Assembly: GCF_010731615.1 (NCBI RefSeq)
Contig: NZ_AP022618.1
Span: 3,782,001 to 3,846,000, forward strand
Reading direction: 5' to 3'
DNA length: 64,000 nt
Source: Mycolicibacterium insubricum
GTDB taxonomy: Bacteria; Actinomycetota; Actinomycetes; Mycobacteriales; Mycobacteriaceae
Positions 4,816 through 21,672 of this stretch are shown one piece after another. Made by a program: the position numbers and the translations under genes. A model generated the notes under the pieces. That model searched no databases. It was not told the origin of the DNA and saw nothing but the letters and a program-made list of their open reading frames with translations. The first letter of the stretch is position 1. The number at the start of each line of letters is the position of its first letter.

Positions 4816-4834
4816 ATGAGAATATGATTCTCAT
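4816..4834. promoter_or_regulatory. Palindromic operator GAGAAT-n3-ATTCTC, site A
   Basis: The 19-base sequence ATGAGAATATGATTCTCAT is two perfect 8-base arms around a 3-base centre. Its core matches sites at 11610 and 18193 and, with one mismatch, 21656. It ends 18 bases before the GTG of the plus-strand gene at 4853 and overlaps a possible -10 hexamer TATGAT (4823-4828), as expected for a repressor site. It lies in the divergent gap of 254 bases between the two catabolic operons. TetR-type binding is inferred from the symmetry and the presence of two TetR genes in the cluster. Confidence 0.75.
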
Positions 4835-4852
4835 CTACGAGAAGGAGGGCCC

Positions 4853-5422
4853 GTGTCCGGGAGGACCCCGTCGGCGGTGCTGTTGGCGCCGCTGCCCGCT
4901 GAAGCCTGGGGCGAGGAGGTGCAGCGCGCACTGGCGCCCATGCTGCCCGCCGCCCGGCGCAATCCCGACGGCGCCGGCAACGCACTGGCCACCATGGTCC
5001 ACCACCCCGCGCTGACCAAGGCGTTCCTCGGGCTCAACGTGCACCTGCTGTTCGGTTCCACCCTGCCCGAGCGGCTGCGCGAACTGGCCATCCTGCGGGT
5101 GGCCGCCCGCGGCGACGCCGCCTACGAATGGCACCATCACGTCGACATGGGCCGGCAGGCCGGACTGACCGACGCCGACATCGCCGGCATCCGGACTGGC
5201 ACCGCGACCGACGAGTTCGACCAGACCGTGCTGAGAGCCGTCGACGAACTCGAAGACGACCACCGGATCTCCCCCGACACCTGGGCCGCACTCGGCGCCC
5301 GGTTCGACGATCAGCAGCGGATGGACCTGATCTTCACCGTCGGCACCTATCGCACGCTCGCGTGCGCCTTCAACACCTTTGGCATACAGCTCGACAACCC
5401 GACCGCTCACGAAACGAGGTAA
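4853..5422 (+). CDS. Carboxymuconolactone decarboxylase (AhpD-like) family protein
   Basis: A 189-residue all-helical protein of the carboxymuconolactone decarboxylase family. The recognisable core is LFGSTLPERLRELAILRVAA followed by AYEWHHHVDMGRQAGLTDADIAGI. The thiol-active AhpD members have a CxxC pair here; this protein has EWHHH and no cysteine, so it is more likely a lactone or muconate-type enzyme or a non-redox member. The GTG start is preceded by GAAGGAGGG. It is the first gene of a plus-strand operon that continues with the Rieske oxygenase at 5427 (4-base gap) and probably extends to 10748. The upstream operator suggests pathway-specific control. Confidence 0.88.
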   Translation: MSGRTPSAVLLAPLPAEAWGEEVQRALAPMLPAARRNPDGAGNALATMVHHPALTKAFLGLNVHLLFGSTLPERLRELAILRVAARGDAAYEWHHHVDMGRQAGLTDADIAGIRTGTATDEFDQTVLRAVDELEDDHRISPDTWAALGARFDDQQRMDLIFTVGTYRTLACAFNTFGIQLDNPTAHETR

Positions 5423-5426
5423 CCCC

Positions 5427-6761
5427 ATGGCGCATTTTCCGAAACCAGCCGTCGGAAGCTGGACCGAGAACTGGCCGGAGCTGGGCACCGCTCCGGTCGA
5501 CTACACCGACTCGATCGACCCCGAGCAGTGGAAACTGGAGCAGCAGGCCATCTTCCGCAAGCTGTGGCTGCACGTCGGCCGCGTGGAGCGCCTGCCCAAG
5601 GCTGGTAGCTACTTCACCCGGGAGATGCCGTCGGTGGGCCCGGGCACCTCGATCATCGTCAACAAGGACAAAGAGGGCAACATCCACGCCTTCTACAACC
5701 TGTGCCGCCACCGCGGCAACAAGCTGGTGTGGAACGACTACCCCGGCGAAGAAGTCTCCGGCAGCTGCCGCCAGTTCACCTGCAAGTACCACGCCTGGCG
5801 CTACGCGCTCAACGGTGACCTGACGTTCATCCAGCAGGAGGACGAGTTCTTCGACGTCGACAAGGCCGACTACCCGCTCAAGCCGGTGCGCTGCGAGGTC
5901 TGGGAAGGCTTCATCTTCGTCAACTTCGACGACGACGCCGAACCGCTGGAGGACTACCTGGGTGATTTCGCCAAGGGCCTGCAGGGTTACCCGTTCCACG
6001 AGATGACCGAGCACTACAGCTACCGCGCGGAGATCAAGTCGAACTGGAAGCTGTTCATCGACGCGTTCGTCGAGTTCTACCACGCCCCGATCCTGCACAT
6101 GAAGCAGGCGACCCCGGAAGAGGCCGCCAAGCTGGCCAAGGTCGGATTCGAGGCGCTGCACTACGACATCAAGGACCAGCACTCGATGATCTCGTCCTGG
6201 GGCGGCATGAGCCCGCCCAAGGACCTCAGCATGGTCAAGCCGATCGAGCGGATCCTGCACTCGGGCCTGTTCGGCCCGTGGGACCGGCCCGACATCAAGG
6301 GCATCCTGCCCGACGAGCTGCCCCCGGCGGTCAACCCGGCGCGCCAGCCCACCTGGGGCCAGGACTCCTTCGAGTTCTTCCCCAATTTCACACTGCTGCT
6401 GTGGGTTCCGGGCTGGTACCTGACCTACAACTACTGGCCGACCGGGGTCGACAGCCACATCTTCGAGGCCAACCTGTACTTCGTACCGCCGAAGAACACC
6501 CGCCAGCGCCTGAGCCAGGAGCTTGCCGCGGTGACGTTCAAGGAGTACGCGCTGCAGGACGCCAACACCCTGGAGGCGACCCAGACCCAGATCGGCACCC
6601 GGGCGGTCACCGAGTTCCCGCTCTGCGACCAGGAGATCCTGCTGCGCCACCTGCATCACACCGCGCACAAGTATGTTGACGCCTACAAGTTGGAGCAGGC
6701 GGCCAAGGGTGCCACCGCCAACGCCACCAACGGTTGCCCGAAGGAGACCGCACATGTCTGA
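5427..6761 (+). CDS. Rieske non-heme iron oxygenase, alpha subunit
   Basis: A 444-residue aromatic-ring-hydroxylating type oxygenase. The Rieske [2Fe-2S] ligands are Cys93-x-His95 (CRHRG) and Cys119-x2-His122 (CKYHAW). The 23-residue spacing between the pairs is longer than the common 15-17. The catalytic iron motif FVEFYHAPILH supplies His219 and His224 near Glu216. The ATG at 5427 has GAGGTAA upstream and directly follows the decarboxylase-like gene. The end overlaps the next gene by 8 bases. It would need a ferredoxin and a reductase; a plant-type ferredoxin is encoded at 18324 but no reductase is in the window. Hydroxylation of a cyclic substrate is inferred from the family. Confidence 0.93.
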   Translation: MAHFPKPAVGSWTENWPELGTAPVDYTDSIDPEQWKLEQQAIFRKLWLHVGRVERLPKAGSYFTREMPSVGPGTSIIVNKDKEGNIHAFYNLCRHRGNKLVWNDYPGEEVSGSCRQFTCKYHAWRYALNGDLTFIQQEDEFFDVDKADYPLKPVRCEVWEGFIFVNFDDDAEPLEDYLGDFAKGLQGYPFHEMTEHYSYRAEIKSNWKLFIDAFVEFYHAPILHMKQATPEEAAKLAKVGFEALHYDIKDQHSMISSWGGMSPPKDLSMVKPIERILHSGLFGPWDRPDIKGILPDELPPAVNPARQPTWGQDSFEFFPNFTLLLWVPGWYLTYNYWPTGVDSHIFEANLYFVPPKNTRQRLSQELAAVTFKEYALQDANTLEATQTQIGTRAVTEFPLCDQEILLRHLHHTAHKYVDAYKLEQAAKGATANATNGCPKETAHV

Positions 6762-7098
6762 TGTCGATACCCGCCTGCTGCCGGAACCCTTCGCCGACCT
6801 GGAGCGTTTCAGCGACTGGATCCTGGCCACCGAACCCGAGCGCTACGCCAAGCGGCTGTCCTCGTCGATGGCCGAGATGCAGGAGCTCTACGACGCGGGC
6901 ATGGCCCGGCTCGAGGAGATCATGGTCTACCTCGACGAGCGTTTCCCGCTGCACGGCATGCCCGACGACGCCAAGCGGCTGATGCACCTGATGCAGTCGG
7001 TGGTGATGGTCAGCTTCCCGGTCGAGGTCTGGAAACAGCCGCGGGTGCTCGACAGCGGCGCGGCCTGGGTCGAAATCGTGCAGGAGCCGGTGGTCTAA
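6754..7098 (+). CDS. Hypothetical protein overlapping the Rieske oxygenase gene
   Basis: A 114-residue acidic, mostly helical protein that I do not recognise. It has no signal peptide, membrane segment or cysteine pair. The ATG at 6754 overlaps the oxygenase stop by 8 bases, and its own stop is 2 bases before the next GTG, so it is embedded in the operon and translationally coupled. Leu/Glu-rich stretches (residues 40-75) suggest an alpha-helical bundle. Conserved coupling to an oxygenase could mean an accessory or small subunit, but nothing in the sequence proves it. Confidence 0.8.
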   Translation: MSDVDTRLLPEPFADLERFSDWILATEPERYAKRLSSSMAEMQELYDAGMARLEEIMVYLDERFPLHGMPDDAKRLMHLMQSVVMVSFPVEVWKQPRVLDSGAAWVEIVQEPVV

Positions 7099-7100
7099 GG

Positions 7101-8378
7101 GTGTCGGACGCGAAACGAGCCGGCGGCCCCAAGCGGCTGACCCTCAAAGCGGCCGGACTGCTCGACGTCGATGCCGGGGCGATCATTCGCCCCGGCATCG
7201 TCGCCGTCGAAGACGATCGGATCGTCGGGATCGGCGGCGACGGGGTCGACCCGGCCGCCCCGGTGATCGACCTCGGCGACGCCGTACTGCTGCCCGGCCT
7301 GATGGACATGGAAGTGAACCTGCTGATGGGCGGCAAGGGCGAGAACCCGGTCCTGTCCCAGGTCCAGGACGATCCGGCGACCCGGGTGCTGCGCGCGGTG
7401 GGCAATGCGCGGCGCACCCTGCGGGCCGGATTCACCACCGTCCGCAACCTCGGTCTGTTCGTCAAGACCGGCGGCTACCTGCTGGACGTCGCGCTGGGCA
7501 AGGCCATCGACGCGGGCTGGATCGAGGGACCGCGGGTGGTTCCCGCCGGGCACGCGATCACCCCCACCGGCGGACACCTGGACCCCACCATGTTCGCCGC
7601 GTTCATGCCCGGCGTGCTGGAGCTGACCATCGAAGAGGGCATCGCCAACGGCGTCGATGAGATCCGCAAGGCGGTGCGCTACCAGATCAAGCACGGCGCT
7701 CAGCTGATCAAGGTGTGCTGTTCCGGCGGCGTCATGTCGCTCACCGGAGAGGCGGGCGCGCAACACTATTCGGACGAGGAACTCCGCGTCATCGTCGACG
7801 AGGCGCATCGGCGCGGCCTGCGGGTCGCCGCGCACACGCACGGCGCCGAAGCCGTCAAGCACGCGGTAGCCTGCGGCATCGACTGCATCGAGCACGGCTT
7901 CCTGATGGACGACGAGGCCATCCAGATGCTGGTGGACAACGACCGATTCCTGGTCACCACCCGCCGGCTGGCCCAGGCTATGGACGTCTCCAAGGCACCG
8001 AAGGTGCTGCAGGACAAGGCTGCCGAGATGTTCCCGAAGGCCGAAACCTCGATCAAGGCGGCGTACGAGGCCGGGGTGAAAATCGCCGTCGGCACCGACG
8101 CACCGGCGATCCCGCACGGTCGCAACGCCGACGAACTGGTCACCCTGGTGGAATGGGGTATGCCGGCCGATGCCGTGCTGCGCGCGGCCACCGTGGTCGC
8201 GGCAGACCTGATCAACGTGACCGACCGCGGGCGCCTGGCGGCCGGGCAGGTCGCCGATATCATTGCCGTGCCCGGCGATCCGCTGGCCGACATCACCGTG
8301 ACCCGAAACGTCAACTTCGTCATGAAGGGTGGAACCGTGTACCGAAACGACCTGTCCCCCAACGGAGGCGCACAGTGA
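7101..8378 (+). CDS. Amidohydrolase (imidazolonepropionase/prolidase-like)
   Basis: A 425-residue amidohydrolase-1-type enzyme with the composite N- and C-terminal beta domain (KAAGLLDVDAGAIIRPGIVA near the start, AGQVADIIAVPGDPL near the end). The metal site usually reads HxH; the matching strand here is LPGLMDMEVNL, so the first HxH is replaced and metal binding may be altered. Later ligands look present: KVCCSGGVMS (possible lysine), VAAHTHGAEAV, CIEHGF and VGTDAPAIPHG. It starts with GTG two bases after the small upstream gene and overlaps the next start by four bases. Hydrolytic ring opening or amide cleavage in the pathway is plausible; the substrate is unknown. Confidence 0.87.
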   Translation: MSDAKRAGGPKRLTLKAAGLLDVDAGAIIRPGIVAVEDDRIVGIGGDGVDPAAPVIDLGDAVLLPGLMDMEVNLLMGGKGENPVLSQVQDDPATRVLRAVGNARRTLRAGFTTVRNLGLFVKTGGYLLDVALGKAIDAGWIEGPRVVPAGHAITPTGGHLDPTMFAAFMPGVLELTIEEGIANGVDEIRKAVRYQIKHGAQLIKVCCSGGVMSLTGEAGAQHYSDEELRVIVDEAHRRGLRVAAHTHGAEAVKHAVACGIDCIEHGFLMDDEAIQMLVDNDRFLVTTRRLAQAMDVSKAPKVLQDKAAEMFPKAETSIKAAYEAGVKIAVGTDAPAIPHGRNADELVTLVEWGMPADAVLRAATVVAADLINVTDRGRLAAGQVADIIAVPGDPLADITVTRNVNFVMKGGTVYRNDLSPNGGAQ

Positions 8379-8818
8379 GCGACGACCGCCGGCCGAGTCG
8401 CATCGAGGATCTGGTCGAGATCCAGCAACTGCTGGCCAAGTACGCCGTCACCATCACCCAGGGCGACACCGACGGTCTGATCAGCGTTTTCACCCCAGAC
8501 GGCACCTACAGCGCATTCGGTGACACCTACACGCTCAACCGGTTCCCGGTGCTCGTCGACGCCGCGCCCAAGGGCCTGTTCATGACCGGCACCGCGCTGG
8601 TCGACCTGGAGGAGGGTGCCGACACCGCCACCGGAACCCAGCCGCTGTGCTTCATCGAGCACTCCCGCCACGACATGCGGATCGGCTACTACCGGGACAG
8701 CTACCTGCGCACCGAGGACGGCTGGCGGCTGAAAACCCGTGCCATGACGTTCATCCGGCGCAGCGGCGACCACGACCACGGTCGCCCGCACGCAATCGGG
8801 AGACCCGAAGCCGGATGA
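8375..8818 (+). CDS. NTF2-like (SnoaL-type) protein
   Basis: A 147-residue protein of the nuclear transport factor 2 fold, starting at GTG 8375 within a GTGA overlap with the preceding stop. It shows the typical pattern of an N-terminal helix (RIEDLVEIQQLLAKYAVTI), the GDTDGLISVFTPDGTY strand and a C-terminal YYRDSYLRTEDGWRLKTRAM strand. The fold is used by dehydratases, steroid isomerases and ring-hydroxylating beta subunits. It could be the small subunit of the Rieske oxygenase encoded three genes upstream, or a separate isomerase or dehydratase. It is coupled by ATGA to the following acyl-CoA dehydrogenase. Confidence 0.85.
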   Translation: MSDDRRPSRIEDLVEIQQLLAKYAVTITQGDTDGLISVFTPDGTYSAFGDTYTLNRFPVLVDAAPKGLFMTGTALVDLEEGADTATGTQPLCFIEHSRHDMRIGYYRDSYLRTEDGWRLKTRAMTFIRRSGDHDHGRPHAIGRPEAG

Positions 8819-9939
8819 CCGATCCCCTGCACGAGCCCGCCGCGTTTCGCACCGCGCTGCGGGCGTGGCTGGCCGACAACGATCTCACTCCACCCGAGGA
8901 TCACACGCTCGCCGGTCACATGACGCAGTTCGCCCGGGTCATGCGGGCGCTCTACGACGGCGGCTGGGGCCGCTACGGCTGGCCGGAACACGCCGGGGGG
9001 CTCGGCGGTCCGGCGATACTGCGCGCCATCGTGGGTGAGGAGATCGTCGGCCGGCGGCTGGCCGAGCCCGGACCGTACTCGATGATCGAGGTCCTGGCGC
9101 CGACGATGATCGACTACGCCTGCCCCGAGCTGGCCGCCGAGATGCTGCCGAAGATGCTCTCCGGCGCCGAGCAGTGGTGCCAGGGCTTCTCCGAACCCGG
9201 CTCCGGCAGCGACCTGGCCTCGCTGACCACCAGGGCCGTGCAGCAGGGCGACAAGTACATCGTCAACGGGCAGAAGGTCTGGACCAGCTTCGCGCAGTTC
9301 TCCCACCGCTGCATCCTGCTGACCCGCACCGGCGACGCCGGCACGCCGAATCACCAGGCCATCACGGCGTTCTTCGTCGACATGGACTCCCCCGGCGTCG
9401 ACGTGCGCCCGCTGCACACCATGCACGGTGTCGACGAGTTCTGCGAGGTGTACTTCGACAACGTCGAGGTCGACGCCTCCCGGATGCTGGGCAGGCCCGG
9501 CGACGGCTGGCAGTTGGCCATGGACCTGCTGCCCTATGAGCGTTCGACCTGCTTCTGGCAGCGGATCGCCTACCTGTATTCGCGGTTCGACGCACTGATC
9601 GCCGAGGTCTCCGACCAAGGGGCCGGCATCGACGACGAGATGGGCGAGACCTATCTGGCGCTGCACACGCTGCGGTGCCGGTCGGCGGCCACCCAGAAGC
9701 GACTGGCGCAAGGCCACCGGCTGGGGCCGGACACCTCCATCGACAAGGTGCTACTGGCCGCCGCCGAGCAGCGGCTCTACGACACCGCCCACGACCTGTT
9801 GCCCGGCGTCATCGAACTCGAAGATTCACCGTGGCGCACCGAGTACCTGTATTCGCGGGCCGCCACCATCTACGGCGGCACCGCGGAGGTGCAGCGCAAC
9901 ATCATCGCCCGGCGGCTGCTGGATCTGGGTAAGGAGTGA
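8815..9939 (+). CDS. Acyl-CoA dehydrogenase, long subunit of pair 1
   Basis: A 374-residue dehydrogenase with the flavin segment CQGFSEPGSGSDLASL and WTSFAQFSHRC. Near the C-terminus it has IYGGTAEVQRNIIA, where the medium-chain enzymes have a catalytic Glu before Gly-Thr (YEGT); here that residue is Gly, so the base must come from elsewhere or from the partner. The ATG at 8815 overlaps the previous stop (ATGA), and its stop overlaps the next GTG (GTGA). The following gene encodes a short dehydrogenase-like subunit. In actinobacterial sterol degradation such adjacent pairs form alpha2beta2 enzymes acting on bulky side chains. Confidence 0.92.
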   Translation: MTDPLHEPAAFRTALRAWLADNDLTPPEDHTLAGHMTQFARVMRALYDGGWGRYGWPEHAGGLGGPAILRAIVGEEIVGRRLAEPGPYSMIEVLAPTMIDYACPELAAEMLPKMLSGAEQWCQGFSEPGSGSDLASLTTRAVQQGDKYIVNGQKVWTSFAQFSHRCILLTRTGDAGTPNHQAITAFFVDMDSPGVDVRPLHTMHGVDEFCEVYFDNVEVDASRMLGRPGDGWQLAMDLLPYERSTCFWQRIAYLYSRFDALIAEVSDQGAGIDDEMGETYLALHTLRCRSAATQKRLAQGHRLGPDTSIDKVLLAAAEQRLYDTAHDLLPGVIELEDSPWRTEYLYSRAATIYGGTAEVQRNIIARRLLDLGKE

Positions 9940-10748
9940 GCGTGACCGATCTGGACGCCGGTTCCCTCGGGCTGCTCGAGGACGCGATGCGCACCTGCAT
10001 GGCGAACGCCTCGGGCCCTGAGCTCGACGCCGCGCTGGCCGAATTGGGCTGGGCCGACATGCTTTCCGAGGTGCCCGATATCGCGGTGCCGTTGGTGTTC
10101 CGGCTGCTCGGCGAGACCGGGGCGCACGCCTCTGTGCTCAACGACGTGCTGCTGGAGACCATCGGCGGACTCCCCGGGGGCACGCCGCCGATGCCGTTCG
10201 CCGGCGGCCACTGGGTGGTGTGGGAACGCGAGGACACCCAAGCGCCGGACAACCCGACGCTGGGCGGGCTGCCGCTGCGCCGGGTCCCCGACGGGGAACT
10301 CATGCGCATCGGCGAGGCCCGCCGGGCCCTGGGCTGGTGGCTGGTGGGATCGGCGCGGGCGATGCTGGCGCTGGCCCGCACCCATGCGCTGGACCGTGTG
10401 CAGTTCGGCAGGCCGATCGCCGGCTTCCAGGCGATCCGGCACAAGCTCGCCGAGACCCTGGTGGCCATCGAGGGCGCGGAGGCGACCCTGAGCCTGCCTG
10501 ACACCGACAGCCCGGATTTGACCGCGATGCTGGCCAAGGCCGCCGCCGGCAAGGCCGCGCTGACCGCCGCCAAGCACACCCAGCAGGTGCTGGCCGGGAT
10601 CGGCTTCACCGCCGAACACGACCTGCACCATCACATCAAGCGGGCGCTGGTCCTCGACGGCCTGCTGGGCAGCTCCCGGGAACTGACCCGCAAGGCCGGC
10701 GCCGGGCTGCGGGCCCGTCGTTCGGCACCCCGGCTGGCCGAGCTCTGA
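9936..10748 (+). CDS. Acyl-CoA dehydrogenase-like, short subunit of pair 1
   Basis: A 270-residue dehydrogenase homologue, well short of the usual 380. The N-terminal helical domain is brief and the EPG.GSD flavin loop is missing, while the C-terminal helical domain is kept (DRVQFGRPIAGFQAIRHKLAETL and GIGFTAEHDLHHHIKRA). This matches the shorter partner of heteromeric acyl-CoA dehydrogenases. The GTG at 9936 overlaps the upstream stop; a GTG at 9942 is an alternative. It is the last gene of the plus-strand operon that begins at 4853. The gene after it, on the other strand, encodes a TetR regulator. Confidence 0.87.
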   Translation: MSVTDLDAGSLGLLEDAMRTCMANASGPELDAALAELGWADMLSEVPDIAVPLVFRLLGETGAHASVLNDVLLETIGGLPGGTPPMPFAGGHWVVWEREDTQAPDNPTLGGLPLRRVPDGELMRIGEARRALGWWLVGSARAMLALARTHALDRVQFGRPIAGFQAIRHKLAETLVAIEGAEATLSLPDTDSPDLTAMLAKAAAGKAALTAAKHTQQVLAGIGFTAEHDLHHHIKRALVLDGLLGSSRELTRKAGAGLRARRSAPRLAEL

Positions 10749-10827
10749 CACCCCGGCGGAATCACCGGCGATAGCGGAGGCCGCCCACGAGGCGACGGTG
10801 GTTCTCGCTGACCCAGAACCTTGTTCT

Positions 10828-11487
10828 CTAGCTAGCTGAGGCGGCGAAACCCAGCGCGCAGAAGCTCCACACCTCGTCGGCGGTGATCGGGTGGATCTCC
10901 TCTTCCTCGGCCGGTGCCGAGGACTGCGCGGTGAACATCACCGTCTGCATCGTCATCGCCGCGACTCGGCGCGGATTGACGTCCGAACGCAGCTGGCCGG
11001 CCTCGGCGGCCTCCTCCATCAGCTCGGTGAACAACACCAGCAACGGGGCGTGAGCAACGCGCACCTCGGTCGGATGCGAGATCAGCAACTGGGGGGCGAA
11101 ATCGGTGAACAACGGGCGCTTAGCCGACGGATCCGGCCGCGACAGCTCAAAGAGCAGCTCAATTGCGACCTTCAACCGGGCCAGCGGCTCCTCCTGGCCC
11201 GATGTCGCGGCGCGGATCTGATTGGCCGCACGGCTGAGCGCATCCTCGAACAGCGCCAGCAGCAACTCATGTTTGCCGTCGAATTGGAGGTAGAAACTAC
11301 GCAGTGACTGCCGGGACCGGTCGACGACTTCCTGCACGGTGAAATCCGTGCTGCCCTTCTCGGTGATGATCGCCTGGGCGGCGTCGAGGAAGCGCTGCAC
11401 GCGCTGGGCGGCACGCAGCTTGGCGGTCTTGATGGACCGCTCGACGGCGCGCTGCTTCCAGGCCGGTTCTTCGCTGGGGCTGCTCAT
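10828..11487 (-). CDS. TetR-family transcriptional regulator
   Basis: A 219-residue regulator. The N-terminal helix-turn-helix domain covers about residues 30-75: AAQAIITEKGSTDFTVQEV, then VVDRSRQSLRSFYLQFDGKHELL, where TetR proteins have ...GTFYxxFxxKxxLL. The rest is a helical ligand-binding and dimer domain, with an acidic EEEEI loop near the end. The ATG at 11487 faces away from the dehydrogenase gene at 11665; the palindrome at 11610 lies between them. It is a good candidate for binding the cluster's operators, but the TetR at 21699 is an equally placed competitor. The ligand is probably a pathway acyl-CoA or acid. Confidence 0.9.
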   Translation of the reverse strand: MSSPSEEPAWKQRAVERSIKTAKLRAAQRVQRFLDAAQAIITEKGSTDFTVQEVVDRSRQSLRSFYLQFDGKHELLLALFEDALSRAANQIRAATSGQEEPLARLKVAIELLFELSRPDPSAKRPLFTDFAPQLLISHPTEVRVAHAPLLVLFTELMEEAAEAGQLRSDVNPRRVAAMTMQTVMFTAQSSAPAEEEEIHPITADEVWSFCALGFAASAS

Positions 11488-11608: not shown

Positions 11609-11625
11609 GGAGAATGTTATTCTCC
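11609..11625. promoter_or_regulatory. Palindromic operator GAGAAT-n3-ATTCTC, site B
   Basis: GGAGAATGTTATTCTCC is a perfect inverted repeat with 7-base arms and a 3-base centre, identical in its core arms to sites A and C. It lies 40 bases upstream of the dehydrogenase ATG at 11665 and 122 bases from the divergent TetR start, so it could control both. A possible -10 hexamer TATTCT overlaps its right arm. The sequence TTATTCG lies just downstream at 11631 and also just upstream of site A. The palindrome would be inside the coding frame if translation began at 11605, which argues for the 11665 start. Confidence 0.75.
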
Positions 11626-11664: not shown

Positions 11665-12675
11665 ATGCTCCTGGAGCTCGATTCCGACCAGCGATTCTGG
11701 CGCGACACGGTGCGCGACGCGCTGGCCAAGGAATGCCCCGCCAGCCTCGTTCGCGCCGTCGCCGAGGACGGTGCCGACACCACGGCGCTGTGGCAGACCT
11801 ACGTCGACATGGGGTGGACCGAGCTCACCGACGCGTCGGAGACCGTCGAACTCGGATTGCTGGTCGAGGCGCTCGGCGCCGCGAGCGATCCCACCCCGTT
11901 CCTGGCCACCCTGACCCAGTTCAGCCCGCTGGCCGGCGACCGGATCGATGCCAAACTCTCCGGCGCCGCGGTCTACGACGGTGTCACCGCGGCCCGCACC
12001 GCCGACGGCTGGGTGCTCGACGGCACCTGCCGGCACGTCCTCGACGGCGACCGCGCCGACCGGCTCGCCGTGCTCACCCCCGCCGGGGTGTTCATCCTGG
12101 GCTCCGATCAGGTGACCGCCCGCCGAGTGCAGGTGTTCGACCCAGTACTGCACGTCGCCGAGGTGACGCTGGCCTCGGTGGCGGTGCCCACCGAGGCCCG
12201 GGTGTCCGGGGTGAACGTCGAGCGCGCCCGGGAGCTCGCGCTGACCGGGATGGCGCTGACCGTGGTCGGTTCCTGCCAGCGGATCCTGGACCTGGTCCTC
12301 GAACACGTCGGGTCCCGCAAGCAGTTCGGCGTGCTGATCGGGTCCTTCCAGGCCGTCCAGCACAAGGCCGCCGATATGCACGTCGCCATCGAGCGGGCCC
12401 GCGCGCTGGCCTATTTCGCCGCGCTGACCCTGGCCGAGGGGGACCCACGCAGTCGGATGGCGGCCATGATGGCCAAGGCCGGCGCCGGCGAGTGCCAGTC
12501 GCTGGTGTTCAAGCACGGCGTACAGCTGTTCGGCGCCATGGGGTTCACCTGGGAGAACGACGTGCAGTTCCCGCTCAAGCGGGCCAAGGCCGGCGAGCTC
12601 ATGCTGGGCGGCGCCGCCGAGCACCGCGCCCGGATCACCGAGGAATCACTGGCCGCGGCACGAGCGGGGGCCTGA
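11665..12675 (+). CDS. Acyl-CoA dehydrogenase-like, short subunit of pair 2
   Basis: A 336-residue homologue that lacks a recognisable EPG.GSD flavin loop but keeps the C-terminal helical domain (SRKQFGVLIGSFQAVQHKAADM and HGVQLFGAMGFTWENDV). The ATG at 11665 has GAGGTGA upstream at 11651 and opens MLLELDSDQRFWRDTV, the normal family start. The full-length partner follows after 3 bases. The divergent TetR gene and operator site B upstream place this pair in the shared regulon. Confidence 0.9.
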   Translation: MLLELDSDQRFWRDTVRDALAKECPASLVRAVAEDGADTTALWQTYVDMGWTELTDASETVELGLLVEALGAASDPTPFLATLTQFSPLAGDRIDAKLSGAAVYDGVTAARTADGWVLDGTCRHVLDGDRADRLAVLTPAGVFILGSDQVTARRVQVFDPVLHVAEVTLASVAVPTEARVSGVNVERARELALTGMALTVVGSCQRILDLVLEHVGSRKQFGVLIGSFQAVQHKAADMHVAIERARALAYFAALTLAEGDPRSRMAAMMAKAGAGECQSLVFKHGVQLFGAMGFTWENDVQFPLKRAKAGELMLGGAAEHRARITEESLAAARAGA

Positions 12676-12678
12676 GCC

Positions 12679-13857
12679 GTGCAACTGACCTTCGACGCCG
12701 ACGTCGAGGCGTTCCGCGACGAATTCATCGCGTTTCTCGACGAGTACCTGCCCGACGAGGCGGTCACCGACCAACGCTCGGAATCGACCGCCGACGTGCC
12801 GCCGTGGGCCCGGGACTGGCAGCGCGTCCTGTTCGACCACGGCTGGCTGGTGCCCGGCTACCCGCCGGAGTTCGGTGGCCGCAACGCCAACATCCTGCAG
12901 CAGTACGTGTGGAACCAGGAACTGTGCCGCCGGCGGATCTATCAGTCCTACAACCCGCAGGGCGTCGGCATCATCGCCGCCTCGCTGCTGACCTTCGGCA
13001 CCGAGGAACAGAAGCGGCGCTGGGCCGTGCCGATCCTACGCGCGGAAATGACTGCGGCACTGGGCATGAGCGAACCCAACGCCGGATCGGATCTGGCCGG
13101 CCTGCGCACGTCGGCGACGCTCACCCCCGACGGGGATGCGTTCATCCTCAACGGCCAGAAGGTGTGGACCTCCGGTGCCCACGACGCCGACGTGATCCTG
13201 GCCTTCGTGCGTACCGACCCGGATGCGCCCAAGCACAAGGGCATCAGCGTGCTGGTGGTGCCCGCCGACACCGAAGGCGTGGTGCGCCGGCCGTTCCCGT
13301 CCTGGTGCGACCGCGAGGACATCGACTTCAACGAGGTCTTCTTCACCGACGCCCGGGTGCCCGCCGAAAATCTGGTCGGGCCACTCAACGGCGGCTGGGG
13401 AGTGGCCAACGGATCGCTGGGCCACGAACGCACCCTGCTGTGGATGCTGTTCGCCGACCGGCTCGACCAGCTGATCGCCGACTACAGACCGGCCACGGTG
13501 CTGGAACGCGACCAGTACGCCACGCTGCTGATGGACGCCGCCGCGCTGCGGTTGTTGGGCTCGGCGGCAATCGCCCGCGAGGCCCGCGGTGAGCAGGACA
13601 CCCAGAGTCTGTCGGTGCTGAAACTGCTTGGATCCGAGTCGGTTCAGACCCATTCCGAGCACGCGCTGGACGCCGCCGGGATCGACGGGCTGCGCCATCC
13701 CAACATCACCTCCAGCTACGCACCGTTCGGTGAGGACGACGCGTCGACCAGTCTGTTCGAACGGCTGCAGCGCACCTTCGGCGGGACCATCGCCGGTGGC
13801 ACCTCGGAGATCCAGCGCAGCATCATCGCCCAGCGGATCCTCGGCCTGCCGCGCTGA
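12679..13857 (+). CDS. Acyl-CoA dehydrogenase, long subunit of pair 2
   Basis: A 392-residue acyl-CoA dehydrogenase with all normal regions: DWQRVLFDHGWLVPGYPPEF near the start, the flavin loop GMSEPNAGSDLAGLRT, the WTSGAHDAD loop, and a C-terminal IAGGTSEIQRSIIAQRILG. As in pair 1, Gly stands where medium-chain enzymes have Glu before Gly-Thr. The GTG start lies 3 bases after the short-subunit stop, so the two are co-translated and probably form one heteromeric enzyme. It is followed by a 125-base convergent gap to the enoyl-CoA hydratase, in which I see no strong terminator. Confidence 0.93.
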   Translation: MQLTFDADVEAFRDEFIAFLDEYLPDEAVTDQRSESTADVPPWARDWQRVLFDHGWLVPGYPPEFGGRNANILQQYVWNQELCRRRIYQSYNPQGVGIIAASLLTFGTEEQKRRWAVPILRAEMTAALGMSEPNAGSDLAGLRTSATLTPDGDAFILNGQKVWTSGAHDADVILAFVRTDPDAPKHKGISVLVVPADTEGVVRRPFPSWCDREDIDFNEVFFTDARVPAENLVGPLNGGWGVANGSLGHERTLLWMLFADRLDQLIADYRPATVLERDQYATLLMDAAALRLLGSAAIAREARGEQDTQSLSVLKLLGSESVQTHSEHALDAAGIDGLRHPNITSSYAPFGEDDASTSLFERLQRTFGGTIAGGTSEIQRSIIAQRILGLPR

Positions 13858-13982: not shown

Positions 13983-14747
13983 TTACTTCTTGGCGATCAG
14001 CCCGTCGACGATGCGGTTGAAGTCGGCGGTGCCGAAGGAGACGTACTCGCTGAGGTTGGCGTAGTCCAGCGAGGTGGTCACCGACCGTTCCAGCTGCATG
14101 TTCATCAGCCGCTTGGTGGCCTCGACGGCCTGCTGCGGCTGCTTGAGGATGCCCCGGGCGCATTCGAGGGCCGCGGCCACCGGATCTGCCACCACGTGGT
14201 TGGCCAGGCCCAGCTCGAGTGCCTTCGCCGCGGGGATCTTCGCCCCGGTCAGCGCGTACTCCTTGGCCTGCAGGAAGCTGATTTGCGTCGGCCAGACCAG
14301 CGGCCCGCCGTCGGCGGCCACCAACCCGATCGACACGTGCGGGTCGGCGAAGAACGCCGTCTCGGCCATGTAGACGACGTCGGACATGGCGGCCAGGCTG
14401 CAGCCCAGGCCGACGGCCGGCCCGTTGACAGCGGCGATGATCGGGATCCGGCACCGGATCATGCCCAGCACCAGGTCGCGGCCGTGCTTGATGGTCTTGG
14501 TGCGCAACGCCTCGTCACGGCGCAGCTCGTCGAGGTAGTTGAAATCGCCGCCGGCCGAAAACGCCCGGCCGGCACCGGTGAGCACCGCGACCCGCGCCCC
14601 GGCGTCCTCGTTGAGCTCGTTGAACAGGTTCGCCAGGCCGACGTGCAGGTTGTCGTTGACGGCGTTGAGCGCATCGGGCCGGTTCAGTGTGATGATCCGC
14701 AGCGGCCCGTCGGCCGCGACGTCGATTTCTTCTGGCATTCCATACAT
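13983..14747 (-). CDS. Enoyl-CoA hydratase/isomerase family protein
   Basis: A 254-residue crotonase-fold protein that hydrates or isomerises enoyl-CoA. The oxyanion-hole segments are present: AGRAFSAGGDFNYLDEL and NGPAVGLGCSLAAMSDVVYM. In the usual hydratase the second catalytic Glu follows at PE.GL; here the sequence is DPHVSIGLVAADGG, with no Glu at that place, so a hydratase, isomerase or hydrolase variant is possible. It is the last gene of the leftward fadD operon; its ATG at 14747 is 1 base after the dehydrogenase stop. A start at 14738 (MPEEID) is an alternative. Confidence 0.9.
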   Translation of the reverse strand: MYGMPEEIDVAADGPLRIITLNRPDALNAVNDNLHVGLANLFNELNEDAGARVAVLTGAGRAFSAGGDFNYLDELRRDEALRTKTIKHGRDLVLGMIRCRIPIIAAVNGPAVGLGCSLAAMSDVVYMAETAFFADPHVSIGLVAADGGPLVWPTQISFLQAKEYALTGAKIPAAKALELGLANHVVADPVAAALECARGILKQPQQAVEATKRLMNMQLERSVTTSLDYANLSEYVSFGTADFNRIVDGLIAKK

Positions 14748-14748
14748 T

Positions 14749-15837
14749 TCAGACTCCCAATCCCAGGATGCGTGAGGCGATGATGTTCTTCTGAATCTGC
14801 GAAGTTCCGCCCATGACGCTCTGCGCCCGGCTGTACAGATAGGAGTTGAACAGTTCGGTGTCGGCGGTCCCGGTCACGGCGAGCGCGGCGTGTCCCACCG
14901 ACTGGTCCACCCAGGTCATCAGCAGCTTGTCGATCGAGCCGTTGGAGTTGTGGGTGATGCCGTCCAGCTGTTCGGACAGCCGGCGCCGCACGTGGTGGGT
15001 GAGCATCTCGGTCTGCACCGCCGCCCAGGCCAGGTCCTCGGGGACCGATCCCTCGCAGCGGGCGGCCATCTGGCGCACCAGCTTGCCGTACCGGGCGGCG
15101 TAGCCCAGCGTCGAGGGTTCCCGCTCGTGGCCGACCACGGTCATCGCCAGCGCCCAGCCGTCACCGGGTTCGCCGACCATGTTGGCCGCCGGCACGGTGG
15201 CGTTGTCGAAGGCGACCTGCCCGAATTCGGTGGTGATGCCGTTGATCATCTCCAGCGGGCGCTGGATCACCCCGGGCTGGTCCATCGCCACGATGAACGC
15301 CGAGATGCCCTTGTGCCGCTTGGCTTCCGGGTCGGTCCGGGCCAGCACCAGGCACCAGTCGGCGACGTCGGAGTAGCTGGTCCAGATCTTGTGGCCGTTG
15401 ATCACCCACTGGTCGCCGTCGCGGACGGCGGTGGTGGTCAGCGACGCCAGATCCGACCCGGCACCGGGCTCGGAGAACCCCTGGCACCAGCGTTCGGTGC
15501 CGTTGATCATGCCGGGCAGGAAGCGTTGCGCAATCTCCTTGCTGCCGTGGTGGCCGAGCCCGACGACCAGGTAGCCCAGGCTGGGCCGCGGCGGGGCGCC
15601 GTAGCGGGCCAGTTCCTCGTCGAGGATGACATCGTAGACCGGGGGCAGCTCCTGGCCGCCGTACTCCTTGGGCCAGGTCACCCCGAAGAACCCGCCGGAG
15701 TACAGCGCGCGGTGCCACTCGCCCTGGCGGGCCCAGTACTCGTCGCCGGACGTCGGGAATTCCTTGGCGTGCACCGAGAGCCAGTCCCGCAGCCGGGCGC
15801 GGAAGGCGGCCTCGTCGGCCGAATCACGAAAGTCCAA
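14749..15837 (-). CDS. Acyl-CoA dehydrogenase, long subunit of pair 3
   Basis: A 362-residue acyl-CoA dehydrogenase with the flavin segment CQGFSEPGAGSDLASLTT, IWTSYSDVADWC, and a C-terminal VMGGTSQIQKNIIASRILG. It begins MDFRDSADEAAFRARLRDWL, as in many sterol-pathway dehydrogenases. The ATG lies inside the 3' end of the preceding short-subunit gene (14-base overlap), which indicates translational coupling within the pair. It closely resembles the long subunit of pair 1, consistent with duplication of a two-gene module. Confidence 0.93.
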   Translation of the reverse strand: MDFRDSADEAAFRARLRDWLSVHAKEFPTSGDEYWARQGEWHRALYSGGFFGVTWPKEYGGQELPPVYDVILDEELARYGAPPRPSLGYLVVGLGHHGSKEIAQRFLPGMINGTERWCQGFSEPGAGSDLASLTTTAVRDGDQWVINGHKIWTSYSDVADWCLVLARTDPEAKRHKGISAFIVAMDQPGVIQRPLEMINGITTEFGQVAFDNATVPAANMVGEPGDGWALAMTVVGHEREPSTLGYAARYGKLVRQMAARCEGSVPEDLAWAAVQTEMLTHHVRRRLSEQLDGITHNSNGSIDKLLMTWVDQSVGHAALAVTGTADTELFNSYLYSRAQSVMGGTSQIQKNIIASRILGLGV

Positions 15838-16729
15838 GATCGATCTCCTCCAACTTGACGGGCCACAGTTCGGTCGAGGTGAGCGCCCGGCGCAGGTAGA
15901 CGTGCGCCAGGCATTCCCAGGTGTTGCCGATTCCGCCGTGCACCTGGATCGAAGTCTCGCACACCGTGCGAGCCGCGCGTGCGCAGTACAGCTTGGCCAC
16001 CCGGGCCGCGCGCAACGCCTCGGCCGGGGTGAGTTCGTCGACCGCCCACGCGGCGTGGCGCAGGATGCTGATCGAACCCTCGACCAGGGTGGCGGCCTCG
16101 GCCAGCAGGTGGGCGACGGCCTGATACGAACCGATGGTCTTGCCGTACTGTTCGCGGATCTTCGCGTAGTCGACCGCCAGGTCCAGCGCGCCGCGGCTCA
16201 CCCCGACCAGGTCGGCAGCGGTGATCACCAGCGCGAGCGCCTGCCAGCGGGCCGCGGCGTCGTCGTCGATCGCGCCCACCTCGGCCAATTGCGTTGCCGT
16301 GGCCCGGGTCCGGGTGAGATCGGCACCCGCGACGGAGTCCCCGACGGATCCGGCGAGGACCCGGGAGCCGTCCACCGCGACCGCGACACCGGCGCCGCGG
16401 GCATCGAATGTTTCGCCGCCGACCACCACGGTCAGGCCGGCGGCGGGATCCAGGCCGGCCAGCCGGTAGGCCTCGTCGGCGAGCACCGGGCCGGCAAACG
16501 GGGCATCGACCAGGCCGCGGCCGAACTCCTCGGCGACGATGGCGACCTCCACCCCGGAGGCGCCGTCGGAACGCAGTGCGCACCAACCCGTTCCGGCGAG
16601 CTGGCGGTCCAGCCGCTCGATCCGTGCGGCGTCGGCGAGTTCGGCGACTGAGGACGGGCCCAGGTCGTCGGCCAGCTTGGCGGCCGCGTTGCGCAGCTGC
16701 TGCTGTTCACCGGTCAGTCGGACATCCAT
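15824..16729 (-). CDS. Acyl-CoA dehydrogenase-like, short subunit of pair 3
   Basis: A 301-residue dehydrogenase homologue without the EPG.GSD flavin loop but with the C-terminal domain (REQYGKTIGSYQAVAHLLAEAA and IQVHGGIGNTWECLAHVYLRRA). It starts MDVRLTGEQQQLRNAAAKLA. It overlaps the fadD gene upstream by 23 bases and the long subunit downstream by 14 bases. The tight coupling suggests a stoichiometric complex with the long subunit. Confidence 0.9.
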   Translation of the reverse strand: MDVRLTGEQQQLRNAAAKLADDLGPSSVAELADAARIERLDRQLAGTGWCALRSDGASGVEVAIVAEEFGRGLVDAPFAGPVLADEAYRLAGLDPAAGLTVVVGGETFDARGAGVAVAVDGSRVLAGSVGDSVAGADLTRTRATATQLAEVGAIDDDAAARWQALALVITAADLVGVSRGALDLAVDYAKIREQYGKTIGSYQAVAHLLAEAATLVEGSISILRHAAWAVDELTPAEALRAARVAKLYCARAARTVCETSIQVHGGIGNTWECLAHVYLRRALTSTELWPVKLEEIDLGLS

Positions 16730-18146
16730 GGCTCTCCTTCAACACACGACGCAACACCTTGCCCGAGGGCAGGCGCGGGATTTCGGAAACGAAGACGATT
16801 TCGGCGGGCCGCTTGTAGGACGCCAGCCGCGCGGCCACCAGGTCTTGCAGTTCACCGGCGCTGACGTCTGCGCCGGGAAGTGTGGCAACCGCGGCGATCA
16901 CCTGTTCCTGGCCGGTCAGCGCCGGACCGTCGGTGTCCGCGACCGGCACCGGCGCGCCGAACACCGCGCAGTCGGCCACCGCGGGGTGGGCGTGCAGCAC
17001 CGACTCCACCTCGGCCGGGGCGACCTGGAAGCCGCGGACCTTGATCATCTCCCGGGTGCGGTCGGTGATGCGCAACCAGCCGTCGGCGTCGAGTACCCCG
17101 ATGTCGCCGGTGCGGTACCAGCCGTCGACGATCACCTCGGCGGTGGCCTCGGCGGGCAGATAGCCGGCCATCAACGAATCCGCTCGGGCCCAGATCTCCC
17201 CAGGGACACCGGGTTGGACCTCGGCGCCGGTTTCGGTGGACCGGATGCGCAGCGCCACCCCCGGCGCGGCGCGTCCGACGGTGTCCAGGCGCCCGCTGCC
17301 GAGTTCGTTGCAGGCCAGCACGGGCAACTCGGTGGCACCGTAGCCGGTCATCCAGGTGACGCCGGTGCGCGCGGTGACGGCCTCGGCGACCGCGGGGGTG
17401 ATCGGGGTGGCGCACCACATGATGTAACGCAGCGAGGACAGGTCGTAGCGTTCCAGATCCGGGTGGGCGGCGATCGCCAGCGCGATGGGGGCCACCGCCA
17501 TCTCCACGGTGATCCGGTCGGCGGCGATGCCGGCCAGCAGCTCGTCGACGTCGAACCGGCGACGCAGCCGCACCCAGCCGCCCGCGTCCAGCATGGCGGC
17601 GATGTTGAGCAGCCCCAGGATGTGCGACGGCGGCGTGACCACCTGCATCCGGTCGGCCGCCTGCAGACCCAGGACGGTGCGCCAGTGCTCGACGCCGGCG
17701 GCGAACGACCGGTGGGTGTGCCGGACCGCCTTGGGGGTTCCGGTGGTGCCCGAGCTGAACACCAGCACGGCCTCGGCATCGGGATCGGCGGCGAAGGGGG
17801 CGGGCCCGGCGACCGGGGTGATCGGTTCGTCGAGGTGGCGCATCGCCCTCAGCTCGGCCAGCGCCGGGTGGTCACCGACGGCGGCCACCGGTTCGGTCAG
17901 CGCCAGCGCGTGGGCCACCTCGCGGTGCTTCCAAGCCGGGCTGAGCAGCACGACGGCCGCCCCGGCCCGCCAGATCCCGTAGAGCGCCATCACGAACTCC
18001 GGCCGGTTCGACGACATCAGCGCGACCCGGTCGCCGGGGCGCACGCCGCGGTCGGCGAGTTCGGCGGCGAACCCGGCGATCAGACCGTCGAGCTCACCGC
18101 GACGGTACTGCCGCTCGGCGCCGGCGAGAACGACCGGGTCGGGCAT
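16707..18146 (-). CDS. Acyl-CoA synthetase (FadD-type AMP-binding ligase)
   Basis: A 479-residue member of the ANL superfamily that activates a carboxylic acid to its CoA thioester through an acyl-adenylate. Motifs in order: VFSSGTTGTPKAVRHTH (phosphate loop), MTGYGATELPV, WYRTGDIGVLDADGWL, DRTREMIKVRGFQVAPAEVE, and PSGKVLRRVLK with the C-terminal lysine. It is slightly shorter than the usual 500-550. The ATG at 18146 has AGGAGGACC just upstream; the frame is open further but without a start that fits. It heads the leftward operon fadD, short and long dehydrogenase, hydratase, and lies 46 bases from operator site C. Confidence 0.93.
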   Translation of the reverse strand: MPDPVVLAGAERQYRRGELDGLIAGFAAELADRGVRPGDRVALMSSNRPEFVMALYGIWRAGAAVVLLSPAWKHREVAHALALTEPVAAVGDHPALAELRAMRHLDEPITPVAGPAPFAADPDAEAVLVFSSGTTGTPKAVRHTHRSFAAGVEHWRTVLGLQAADRMQVVTPPSHILGLLNIAAMLDAGGWVRLRRRFDVDELLAGIAADRITVEMAVAPIALAIAAHPDLERYDLSSLRYIMWCATPITPAVAEAVTARTGVTWMTGYGATELPVLACNELGSGRLDTVGRAAPGVALRIRSTETGAEVQPGVPGEIWARADSLMAGYLPAEATAEVIVDGWYRTGDIGVLDADGWLRITDRTREMIKVRGFQVAPAEVESVLHAHPAVADCAVFGAPVPVADTDGPALTGQEQVIAAVATLPGADVSAGELQDLVAARLASYKRPAEIVFVSEIPRLPSGKVLRRVLKESHGCPTDR

Positions 18147-18192
18147 CGGTCCTCCTGGTCGGTGTGTGCCGGGGCGGCGGGAAACTCCGGAT

Positions 18193-18207
18193 GAGAATAC
18201 TATTCTC
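18193..18207. promoter_or_regulatory. Palindromic operator GAGAAT-n3-ATTCTC, site C
   Basis: GAGAATACTATTCTC is a perfect 6-3-6 palindrome in the divergent gap between fadD (start 18146) and the ferredoxin gene (start 18324). It shares both arms with sites A and B. A further half site TAGAATAC follows at 18215-18222. Possible -10 elements (TACTAT, TATTCT) overlap it. One bound repressor here could block both directions, tying acid activation to the ferredoxin that may serve the Rieske oxygenase. Confidence 0.75.
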
Positions 18208-18323
18208 GTTGGAGTAGAATACACGTACCATGGTGGTGGTCGCGCCGCCTGTGGCACCCGGGGTGGCACGTTCCCCGGGACTCGGCGCGACGCCGCCGAC
18301 AGCATGTCGAGAGGTGTGAATCC

Positions 18324-18638
18324 ATGACTTCACCGGCTTCGGGTGACACCGCGGTGGCGACCGGCCGACCCGAGGTGACCGTGCACCTCGACGGTCGAAC
18401 CGAGACCATTGCCGCGCAGCCGGGTGAGACCATCCTGGAATCCGCGCGCCGCGCGGGGCTGACGCCGCCGTTCTCCTGCGAGGCCGGCAACTGCGGCACC
18501 TGCATGGCGGTGCTGCGCGAGGGCACCGCGACCATGCGGGTCAACGATGCCCTGGACGACGACGAGGTCGAGGAGGGGTACGTACTGACCTGTCAGGGCG
18601 TCCCGGACTGCACCGTCGTCGTCGACTACGACTGCTGA
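18324..18638 (+). CDS. Plant-type [2Fe-2S] ferredoxin
   Basis: A 104-residue stand-alone ferredoxin of the fer2 type. The cluster ligands are in FSCEAGNCGTCMA (Cys-x4-Cys-x2-Cys) with the fourth Cys in YVLTCQGVP. The fold begins at VTVHLDGRTETIAAQPGETI. The same domain forms the C-terminus of KshB-type oxygenase reductases; here the flavin and NAD domains are missing, so the protein is an electron carrier only. It is transcribed alone from the site C region and is the obvious donor candidate for the Rieske oxygenase at 5427, but this pairing is inferred. Confidence 0.93.
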   Translation: MTSPASGDTAVATGRPEVTVHLDGRTETIAAQPGETILESARRAGLTPPFSCEAGNCGTCMAVLREGTATMRVNDALDDDEVEEGYVLTCQGVPDCTVVVDYDC

Positions 18639-18648
18639 CCGCGCCCGG

Positions 18649-19680: not shown

Positions 19681-19684
19681 GGCC

Positions 19685-20641: not shown

Positions 20642-20739
20642 CTGCGACCCACTCCTTTGCCTCGCCCGGCGCAGCCGTCGTCAACCCGGCGGGCGGCGCC
20701 GGTGCACCCGCTCCCGGTGATAACGTACTTGCAGAAAAA

Positions 20740-20754
20740 GAGAATGCCAATACC
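20740..20754. promoter_or_regulatory. Half operator GAGAAT upstream of the SDR gene
   Basis: GAGAATGCCAATACC has one intact GAGAAT arm and a degenerate second arm compared with the cluster palindrome. It lies 49 bases upstream of the SDR start and 98 bases from the divergent LLM oxidoreductase start. It may be a weak site for the same regulator. Confidence 0.35.
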
Positions 20755-20803
20755 GCTGGATGCAAGCCTGCTTCTGGCGGCGTTTCGATTCCCGGGAGGC
20801 ACC

Positions 20804-21631
20804 ATGCCGTCGCTGCAGGACCGCACCATGATCATCTCCGGCGCCAGCCGCGGCATCGGCCTGGCGATCGGGCTGGCCGCCGCCCGCCAGGGCGCGAACG
20901 TGGTCCTGCTGGCCAAGACCGCCGAACCGCATCCCAAGCTGCCCGGCACCGTCTACACCGCCGCCGCCGAGATCGAGGCCGCCGGGGGCCGCGCCGCCGC
21001 CGTCGTCGGCGACGTCCGCAAGGAGGACGACGTGGCACGTGCGGTGGCGGTCGCCGTCGAGACCTTCGGCGGGGTGGACATCTGCGTCAACAACGCCAGC
21101 GCCATCTTCACCGCCCCCACCGAGGAACTGTCGGCCAAGCAGTTCGACCTGATGATGGACATCAACGTCCGCGGCACCTTCCTGCTGACCAAGGCCGCCA
21201 TTCCGCACCTACGCCGCTCGCCGAACGCCCACGTGCTGACGCTGTCGCCGCCGATGAACATGAATCCGTACTGGCTGGGCCTGCACCCGTCGTACACCCT
21301 GAGCAAGTACGGCATGACGCTGCTGGCGCTGGGCTGGGCCGCCGAGTACGCCGAGGTGCCGATCGCGTCGAACTGCCTGTGGCCGCAGACCTATATCGCC
21401 ACCGCCGCGGTGACCAACCTCGCCGCCGGCAACGACGACATGCTGGCCCGCTCCCGTCGGCCCGAGATCATGGGCGACGCGGCCGCCGCCATCCTGACCC
21501 GGCCCGCGGCCGAGGCCACCGGCAACTGCTACATCGACGCCGACGTGCTGACCGAGGCCGGGCGGACCGATCTGTCCGGCTACGGCGGCGGCGACAACCC
21601 CATCCTGGACCTGTTCCTGGACGCCGAATAG
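20804..21631 (+). CDS. Short-chain dehydrogenase/reductase (HSDL2-like)
   Basis: A 275-residue NAD(P)-dependent SDR. The cofactor loop is GASRGIG (residues 13-19), followed by NNAS near residue 97 and the catalytic YTLSK. The internal PPMNMNPYWLGLHPSYTLSK segment and the C-terminal GNCYIDADVLTEAG resemble hydroxysteroid dehydrogenase-like protein 2 and related sterol or fatty-acyl SDRs. The ATG at 20804 has GGGAGG upstream; the frame runs back far into the LLM gene but that part is antisense. In the pathway it would oxidise the 3-hydroxyacyl-CoA or a ring alcohol. Confidence 0.93.
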   Translation: MPSLQDRTMIISGASRGIGLAIGLAAARQGANVVLLAKTAEPHPKLPGTVYTAAAEIEAAGGRAAAVVGDVRKEDDVARAVAVAVETFGGVDICVNNASAIFTAPTEELSAKQFDLMMDINVRGTFLLTKAAIPHLRRSPNAHVLTLSPPMNMNPYWLGLHPSYTLSKYGMTLLALGWAAEYAEVPIASNCLWPQTYIATAAVTNLAAGNDDMLARSRRPEIMGDAAAAILTRPAAEATGNCYIDADVLTEAGRTDLSGYGGGDNPILDLFLDAE

Positions 21632-21653
21632 GCGAGTTCCCCCGACGGCAACG

Positions 21654-21672
21654 CCGAGAAAGCTATTCTCGG
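21654..21672. promoter_or_regulatory. Near-palindromic operator, site E, upstream of the second TetR gene
   Basis: CCGAGAAAGCTATTCTCGG has 8-base arms with one mismatch around a 3-base centre; its core GAGAAA-gct-ATTCTC differs from the other sites by one base. It lies 26 bases upstream of the TetR start at 21699, a position typical of autoregulation. This makes the adjacent TetR protein the stronger candidate for the regulator of all the sites. Confidence 0.65.

Follow-up and report, generated by a model that had tools for sequence, protein, structure and literature searches.

A recurrent palindrome and its candidate TetR-family reader in a catabolic gene island of Mycolicibacterium insubricum

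The DNA considered here is a stretch of 64,000 nucleotides from the genome of Mycolicibacterium insubricum (contig NZ_AP022618.1, positions 3,782,001 to 3,846,000), which is called the window below. Near its left end lie genes for acyl-coenzyme A (acyl-CoA) dehydrogenases, a CoA ligase, a Rieske oxygenase, a ferredoxin, a protein of the Pfam family PF04909 and two TetR-family regulators, and in the gaps between these genes recurs a short palindrome, GAGAATNNNATTCTC, that is, GAGAAT-n3-ATTCTC. This palindrome, the genes that it marks and TetR1, its proposed reader, are the subject of this text. The features are collected in Table 1 in window coordinates, while seven-digit positions in the text refer to the contig. 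Gene starts are predictions by the gene finder run in this analysis, not annotation.

The palindrome in the window and across the genome

Three exact copies and one copy with a single mismatch are found in the window, and there is no other match there at two mismatches or fewer. Shuffled sequences gave on average 0.51 matches at this stringency, and none of 100 shuffles got to four. A first, sequence-only reading of this DNA had placed the perfect copies in divergent promoter gaps and the one-mismatch copy just before a TetR gene; both placements hold up in the scan and the gene predictions. The same reading had also counted a half copy at 20740, before the gene of a short-chain dehydrogenase/reductase (SDR). 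This sequence, GAGAATGCCAATACC, has three mismatches, each of them in the second arm; it carries no weight and was dropped as evidence for the regulon.

A scan of the whole genome, which the sequence-only reading had proposed as a check, finds the matches clustered rather than random. The genome is a single contig of 4.58 Mb with 11 distinct sites, five exact and six with one mismatch, and 10 of these fall between 3,684,494 and 3,803,670, an island of 119 kb. Under uniform scatter, the probability of finding 10 of 11 sites in such a stretch is about 1.5e-15, a value that makes the clustering look somewhat stronger than it is, as the stretch was picked after seeing the sites. The 10 island sites, which occupy nine gaps, are all intergenic, with the closest predicted start 17–54 bp away, and coding sequence takes up 93% of this stretch. 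A control pattern made by reversing the motif is missing from this genome and occurs once each in three of 198 genomes of the genus. The idea of a shared catabolic regulon thus stands, but its earlier extent, a 22-kb cluster, does not: the sites span about 120 kb, and the regulon is some five times the size first given.

Outside the window, sites precede a PF04909 gene at 3,683,281, a CoA ligase gene at 3,734,211 and two open reading frames (ORFs) without a Pfam match, at 3,735,977 and 3,738,297, near an mce operon. The site at 3,751,588 lies between an aldehyde dehydrogenase gene and a diverging gene for a mycofactocin-type SDR, after which come a short ORF, judged by eye to be ferredoxin-like, and a P450 gene; the site at 3,761,817 lies between an acyl-CoA dehydrogenase gene and a diverging PF04909 operon. 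The mce operon itself was rejected as a direct target, since the 294-bp gap 5' of the operon holds nothing closer than five mismatches to the motif. The one site outside the island, a one-mismatch copy at 2,171,252, overlaps the predicted start of an ORF without an evident catabolic link and is probably a chance match.

The same promoters recur as targets in other genomes. Nine motif-bearing relatives, chosen for their long contigs, were surveyed at 54 exact sites (including three of the four in G404) and four one-mismatch sites. No predicted gene contains any of these 58 sites, and 54 of them are near a predicted start. A site stands 5' of TetR1 in all nine relatives; seven each have one before the 3,683,281 protein, in the gap between the 3,785,303 gene and the operon of carboxymuconolactone decarboxylase (CMD) and Rieske genes, and at the CoA ligase promoter, the ferredoxin promoter or both. 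In four of the nine a site is found in the gap between the 3,761,944 and acyl-CoA dehydrogenase genes, likewise in four before a phosphotransferase-family gene (3,707,987), and in three in the gap between an IclR gene and a hydrolase gene. Two-mismatch sites in the M. insubricum genome, at 3,707,939 and 3,726,462, precede genes that have exact sites in relatives.

Table 1. Palindrome copies, regulators and neighbouring genes in the window
Feature	Position	Strand	Setting or basis
Exact palindrome GAGAATATGATTCTC	4818..4832		Divergent gap 4598(-)/4877(+), PF04909 gene (-) and CMD/Rieske operon (+)
Exact palindrome GAGAATGTTATTCTC	11610..11624		Divergent gap 11487(-)/11665(+), TetR1 (-) and acyl-CoA dehydrogenase (+)
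Exact palindrome GAGAATACTATTCTC	18193..18207		Divergent gap 18146(-)/18354(+), CoA ligase operon (-) and ferredoxin (+)
One-mismatch palindrome GAGAAAGCTATTCTC	21656..21670		20 bp 5' of predicted TetR start 21690, after same-strand SDR gene
TetR1, proposed repressor	10828..11487	-	Pfam TetR_N, co-occurrence with motif, site in own promoter
Second TetR-family regulator, probably a target	21690..22340	+	Pfam TetR_N; distribution out of step with motif
PF04909 protein, candidate dinuclear oxygenase related to DitZ and PtmU3 (genome 3,785,303)	3303..4598	-	Pfam, solved relatives, ligand residues
CMD-family protein; start may be further upstream	4877..5422	+	PF02627
Rieske ring-hydroxylating oxygenase alpha subunit	5427..6761	+	PF00848 and PF00355
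Small ORF without Pfam match, retained in conserved block	6754..7098	+	
Amidohydrolase, PF01979 family	7101..8378	+	
SnoaL-like protein	8375..8818	+	PF13577
Acyl-CoA dehydrogenase	8815..9939	+	
Acyl-CoA dehydrogenase-like protein	9936..10748	+	C-terminal domain match
Acyl-CoA dehydrogenase-like protein	11665..12675	+	C-terminal domain match
Acyl-CoA dehydrogenase	12679..13857	+	
Enoyl-CoA hydratase	13983..14738	-	
Acyl-CoA dehydrogenase	14749..15837	-	
Acyl-CoA dehydrogenase-like protein	15824..16729	-	C-terminal domain match
Acyl-CoA ligase (fadD)	16707..18146	-	PF00501 and PF13193
2Fe-2S ferredoxin	18354..18638	+	PF00111
SDR oxidoreductase; regulon membership not supported (3-mismatch half copy alone precedes gene)	20804..21631	+	NF006133

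TetR1 and the palindrome in related genomes

TetR1 has a TetR_N domain (PF00440; 30.4 bits, with the cut-off at 24), and the palindrome accompanies its gene closely. In the best 80 of 421 relatives, the named loci, the motif is present within 260 bp 5' of TetR1 every time, 68 times in exact form and 12 times with a T to C change at position 6; its distance to the TetR1 start is 121 or 122 bp in 55 of them. A separate set of 29 TetR1 loci, which includes that of M. insubricum itself, gave 24 exact sites, three with one mismatch, one with two, and one locus with none (G026). The association reaches beyond close homologues: each of three TetR1 paralogues of 57–58% identity in a second genus has an exact site upstream, and a TetR1 paralogue of 63% identity in G178 has a one-mismatch site. 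Upstream of two TetRs of about 30% identity, which come from two of the same genomes, and of one of about 32–35% in G009, no site was found. The predicted structure of TetR1, of only moderate confidence (mean predicted local distance difference test score 73.6, below 50 for residues 57–71), was not used.

The same match is seen over whole genomes. Among the 198 genomes of the genus, 163 have exact copies of the motif and 163 have a TetR1 homologue at E 1e-60 or better; 160 have the two together and 32 have neither, so that motif and TetR1 agree in 192 genomes and disagree in six (Fisher p 4.9e-30, not corrected for relatedness). In this cross-table, 15 of the 35 TetR1-negative genomes were identified by their absence from the list of 163 positives. 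The discordant genomes are G056, G089 and G178, with TetR1 and no exact motif, and G044 (one copy), G070 (one) and G148 (eight), with the motif and no TetR1; G056 and G178 do have a one-mismatch site 5' of TetR1. In a wider sample of 298 genomes of the order, at least one exact site is found in 34 of 35 members of the genus, in seven of 20 other members of the family, and, outside the family, in 13 of 243 genomes. The five of those 20 genomes that have at least two copies all encode TetR1, at 75–77% identity, and the remaining 15, with one copy or none, gave no TetR1 match at E 1e-20.

Some observations pull the other way and weigh against TetR1 as the reader. G148 has its eight exact sites and no TetR1 at E 1e-20, in an assembly of 700 contigs that is 93% complete and 7% contaminated; no site stands by the TetR1 genes of G089 and G026 in the sequence examined; the co-occurrence could partly stem from gain or loss of the whole cluster; and the co-occurrence tests covered TetR1 and the TetRs at 21,690 and 3,760,050, while the island has further candidates in the IclR gene at 3,726,652 and the TetR-like ORFs at 3,692,367, 3,714,263 and 3,729,006. 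With these points included, we consider it very probable, from comparison of the genomes, that the palindrome is the operator of TetR1 and controls a catabolic regulon, a judgement that does not extend to the substrate.

Other explanations of the sites fare less well. The sites might be chance palindromes in the AT-richer DNA between genes, as they are indeed intergenic and short palindromes do occur by chance, but the excess over shuffled sequence, the scarcity of the reversed pattern in the genus and the small number of exact sites in other families (just 14, in the 13 genomes mentioned) speak strongly against this, as does the pattern of conservation, since over the 80 named loci the arms are constant except at position 6 while the centre varies; we regard the chance explanation as practically negligible. 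The TetR encoded at 21,690–22,340 could instead be the master regulator, with the one-mismatch site as its own operator. That site does stand 20 bp before its start, and a one-mismatch site also stands upstream of its nearest two homologues (60% identity; G166 and G162). Its homologues at E 1e-40, however, are present in 78 of the 198 genus genomes, against 163 for the motif, none outside the M. insubricum genome exceeds 60% identity, and 27 of 30 loci examined have no site. This role, rejected on the distribution across genus genomes, is very unlikely; the sequence-only reading, which had inferred a TetR operator and proposed both TetRs for binding tests, is supported as regards TetR1, the one credible general reader of the two, and the second TetR looks like a target. 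It is also conceivable, though improbable, that another regulator of the island reads the motif and that TetR1 is a mere neighbour. The island has several TetR-like ORFs, and the promoter gap of the IclR gene has its site in three of nine relatives, but the site accompanies TetR1 and its paralogues down to 57–63% identity, and the TetR at 3,760,050 was rejected as a reader on its presence in just two of 44 genomes searched.

KstR and KstR2 are TetR repressors that act through short palindromic operators on scattered CoA-dependent operons of sterol catabolism in mycobacteria, and the proposed TetR1 system is alike. TetR1 differs from KstR itself, scoring 19.5 bits on the KstR model against a cut-off of 280. 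The KstR consensus used here matches the region at 3,678,453 and 3,765,462, neither of them at a motif promoter, and the KstR2 consensus used gave no match in the region. Control by KstR or KstR2 was therefore rejected, in agreement with the earlier impression that the motif is unlike their operators. TetR1 falls far short of the cut-offs of all seven NCBIfam families that it matched; the weak matches to FadR, FasR, BetI, RutR and ScbR, at 19–39 bits against curated cut-offs of 118 to 368, involve chiefly the DNA-binding part. Catabolic regulons under TetR control are familiar, and no description of this member or of its motif turned up among the papers listed in our search, which covered few subscription journals. 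That the genes form a catabolic regulon with a shared TetR operator, as first proposed, is well supported by the genome comparison.

A few minor observations concern TetR1 alone. Ten of the 198 genus genomes, for example G016, G022 and G150, have two TetR1 copies, which suggests duplicated or split regulons. TetR1 also turns up in records titled Acidobacteria MAG (L082, 88%) and Nocardia sp. alder85J (L152, 81%); these are possibly misbinned or mislabelled records, or cases of transfer. Plasmid records gave no TetR1 match at E 1e-20.

PF04909 proteins at the marked promoters

Three proteins with the PF04909 fold stand out in the regulon, encoded at 3,683,281, 3,763,070 and 3,785,303. To the same family belong the dinuclear monooxygenases PtmU3, AibH2 and SfbO (PMC10811679). 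The 3,785,303 protein aligns over nearly its full length, the same ligand residues included, with DitZ (PDB 8uyr; E 9.3e-106), and also matches PtmU3 (E 3.2e-29). The best or second-best solved relatives of the 3,763,070 protein are the SfbO/AibH2 group; for the 3,683,281 protein, PtmU3 ranks second among solved relatives, behind 4dzi, a putative hydrolase whose activity is not stated. PMC12141560 lists seven AibH2 residues, and six residues coordinate the metals while D342 is second-sphere (PMC10401708); the ligand set used here, D25, H27, H211, E265, D337 and H340, is that list minus D342. Each of the three proteins has the full set, as judged by alignment or motif, and the six residues are identical in nine of nine homologues of the 3,683,281 protein, four of four of the 3,763,070 protein and 68 of 68 of the 3,785,303 protein (at least 60% identity, or 45% for two proteins, about 85% coverage, identical copies counted once). 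The second-sphere D342 is replaced by T in the 3,763,070 protein. By their sequences, then, the three proteins look like amidohydrolase-related dinuclear oxygenases.

The gene neighbourhood of the 3,763,070 protein adds to this likeness. Downstream of the site follow, in order, the genes for the 3,761,944 protein, which is without several ligand residues and at best resembles a partner subunit, the AibH2-like 3,763,070 protein, a Rieske ferredoxin (PF00355, at 3,764,278), an alpha/beta-hydrolase, an ORF on the opposite strand, a NuoF-like flavoprotein and a 4Fe-4S ferredoxin; the chain from the AibH2-like gene to the last ferredoxin spans 3,763,070–3,767,776 (L017:1070-5773). The same order is kept in G034, G020 and G196; in G065 the Rieske ferredoxin and NuoF-like genes are each in two pieces, and the fetched stretch stops before the last gene. 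The locus shares with the AibH1H2/AibG, SfbO and PtmU3 systems (PMC10811679, PMC10401708, PMC12141560) the PF04909 fold, the six ligand residues and, in this one operon, a small Rieske neighbour. The NuoF-like flavoprotein nearby could conceivably correspond to AibF, which is described as a flavoenzyme. Because the opposite-strand ORF intervenes, the flavoprotein may be on a separate transcript. An oxygenase chain driven by NADH would fit the locus, judged by its gene content, and a new multicomponent oxygenase is possible.

The competing view takes the PF04909 proteins for mononuclear hydrolases or decarboxylases of the ordinary kind rather than oxygenases, a reading that we regard as doubtful though a serious contender. 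The family includes hydrolases, hydratases and decarboxylases as well as oxygenases (PMC10811679), and weak decarboxylase matches also turn up among our searches. This reading is less easily squared with the DitZ/PtmU3 and SfbO/AibH2 proteins standing first or second among the solved relatives of two of the three, with the six ligand residues, present and conserved, or with the Rieske ferredoxin beside the 3,763,070 gene. A small Rieske protein encoded within three genes is a search rule and not a definition (PMC10811679); the 3,763,070 protein has one, and none was noted beside the other two proteins.

A possible pathway and its setting in the island

In the mechanism that we propose, a TetR1 dimer would most likely bind across the GAGAAT and ATTCTC arms and act at the nine promoter gaps (10 sites) of the island, its own promoter included. 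We infer repression rather than activation: TetR1 would hold these promoters shut until a metabolite of the pathway, perhaps a CoA ester, frees it. The regulated genes would make up a CoA-dependent degradation pathway, with CoA ligases, acyl-CoA dehydrogenases, a Rieske oxygenase, ferredoxins, a P450 system and several PF04909 proteins.

The substrate is the weakest step of this reading. The family ties to PtmU3 and DitZ, together with the mce operon close by, suggest a hydrophobic polycyclic, possibly terpenoid-like compound. The "dit" in DitZ presumably refers to diterpenoid degradation, a mere lead to the substrate, and among the papers listed by a literature search, where the word was always a surname, none was on the DitZ protein. 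Passages of a review (PMC6891630) list Mycobacterium strains that degrade resin acids, with no link there to these genes, and the literature search gave no name for the substrate of the pathway. Taken in full, the proposal is that TetR1 governs a widespread mycobacterial pathway for polycyclic terpenoid-like compounds, with several dinuclear-metal PF04909 oxygenases, among them a new multicomponent monooxygenase (3,761,944-like partner, AibH2-like oxygenase, Rieske ferredoxin, NuoF-like NADH flavoprotein and 4Fe-4S ferredoxin). In this full form we hold it tentatively, as a possibility somewhat short of an even chance.

The assignment of an operator and a probable regulator would cover a large catabolic gene set in about four-fifths of the genomes of the genus (163 of 198) and in two related genera, and the operator predicts which of the scattered genes act together. 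It also places candidate dinuclear oxygenases, members of a class whose native substrates are mostly unknown, in a pathway that could be induced and studied. It would offer a way into an unstudied pathway, some of whose proteins probably belong to a newly described class of metal enzymes that use oxygen.

Two further parts of the island deserve mention. At 3,722,995–3,727,293 (L015:998-5290), adjoining the IclR gene, are genes for a hydroxylase, an extradiol dioxygenase and an alpha/beta-hydrolase like those of 3-(3-hydroxyphenyl)propionate breakdown; the site here has two mismatches, and exact sites are found in three of the nine relatives. The island also has two genes for mycofactocin-coupled SDRs (L013:13740-14582 and L016:9637-10494). 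The second of them has a one-mismatch site before it and a P450 gene after it, and the top-ranked solved relative of this P450 is P450cin.

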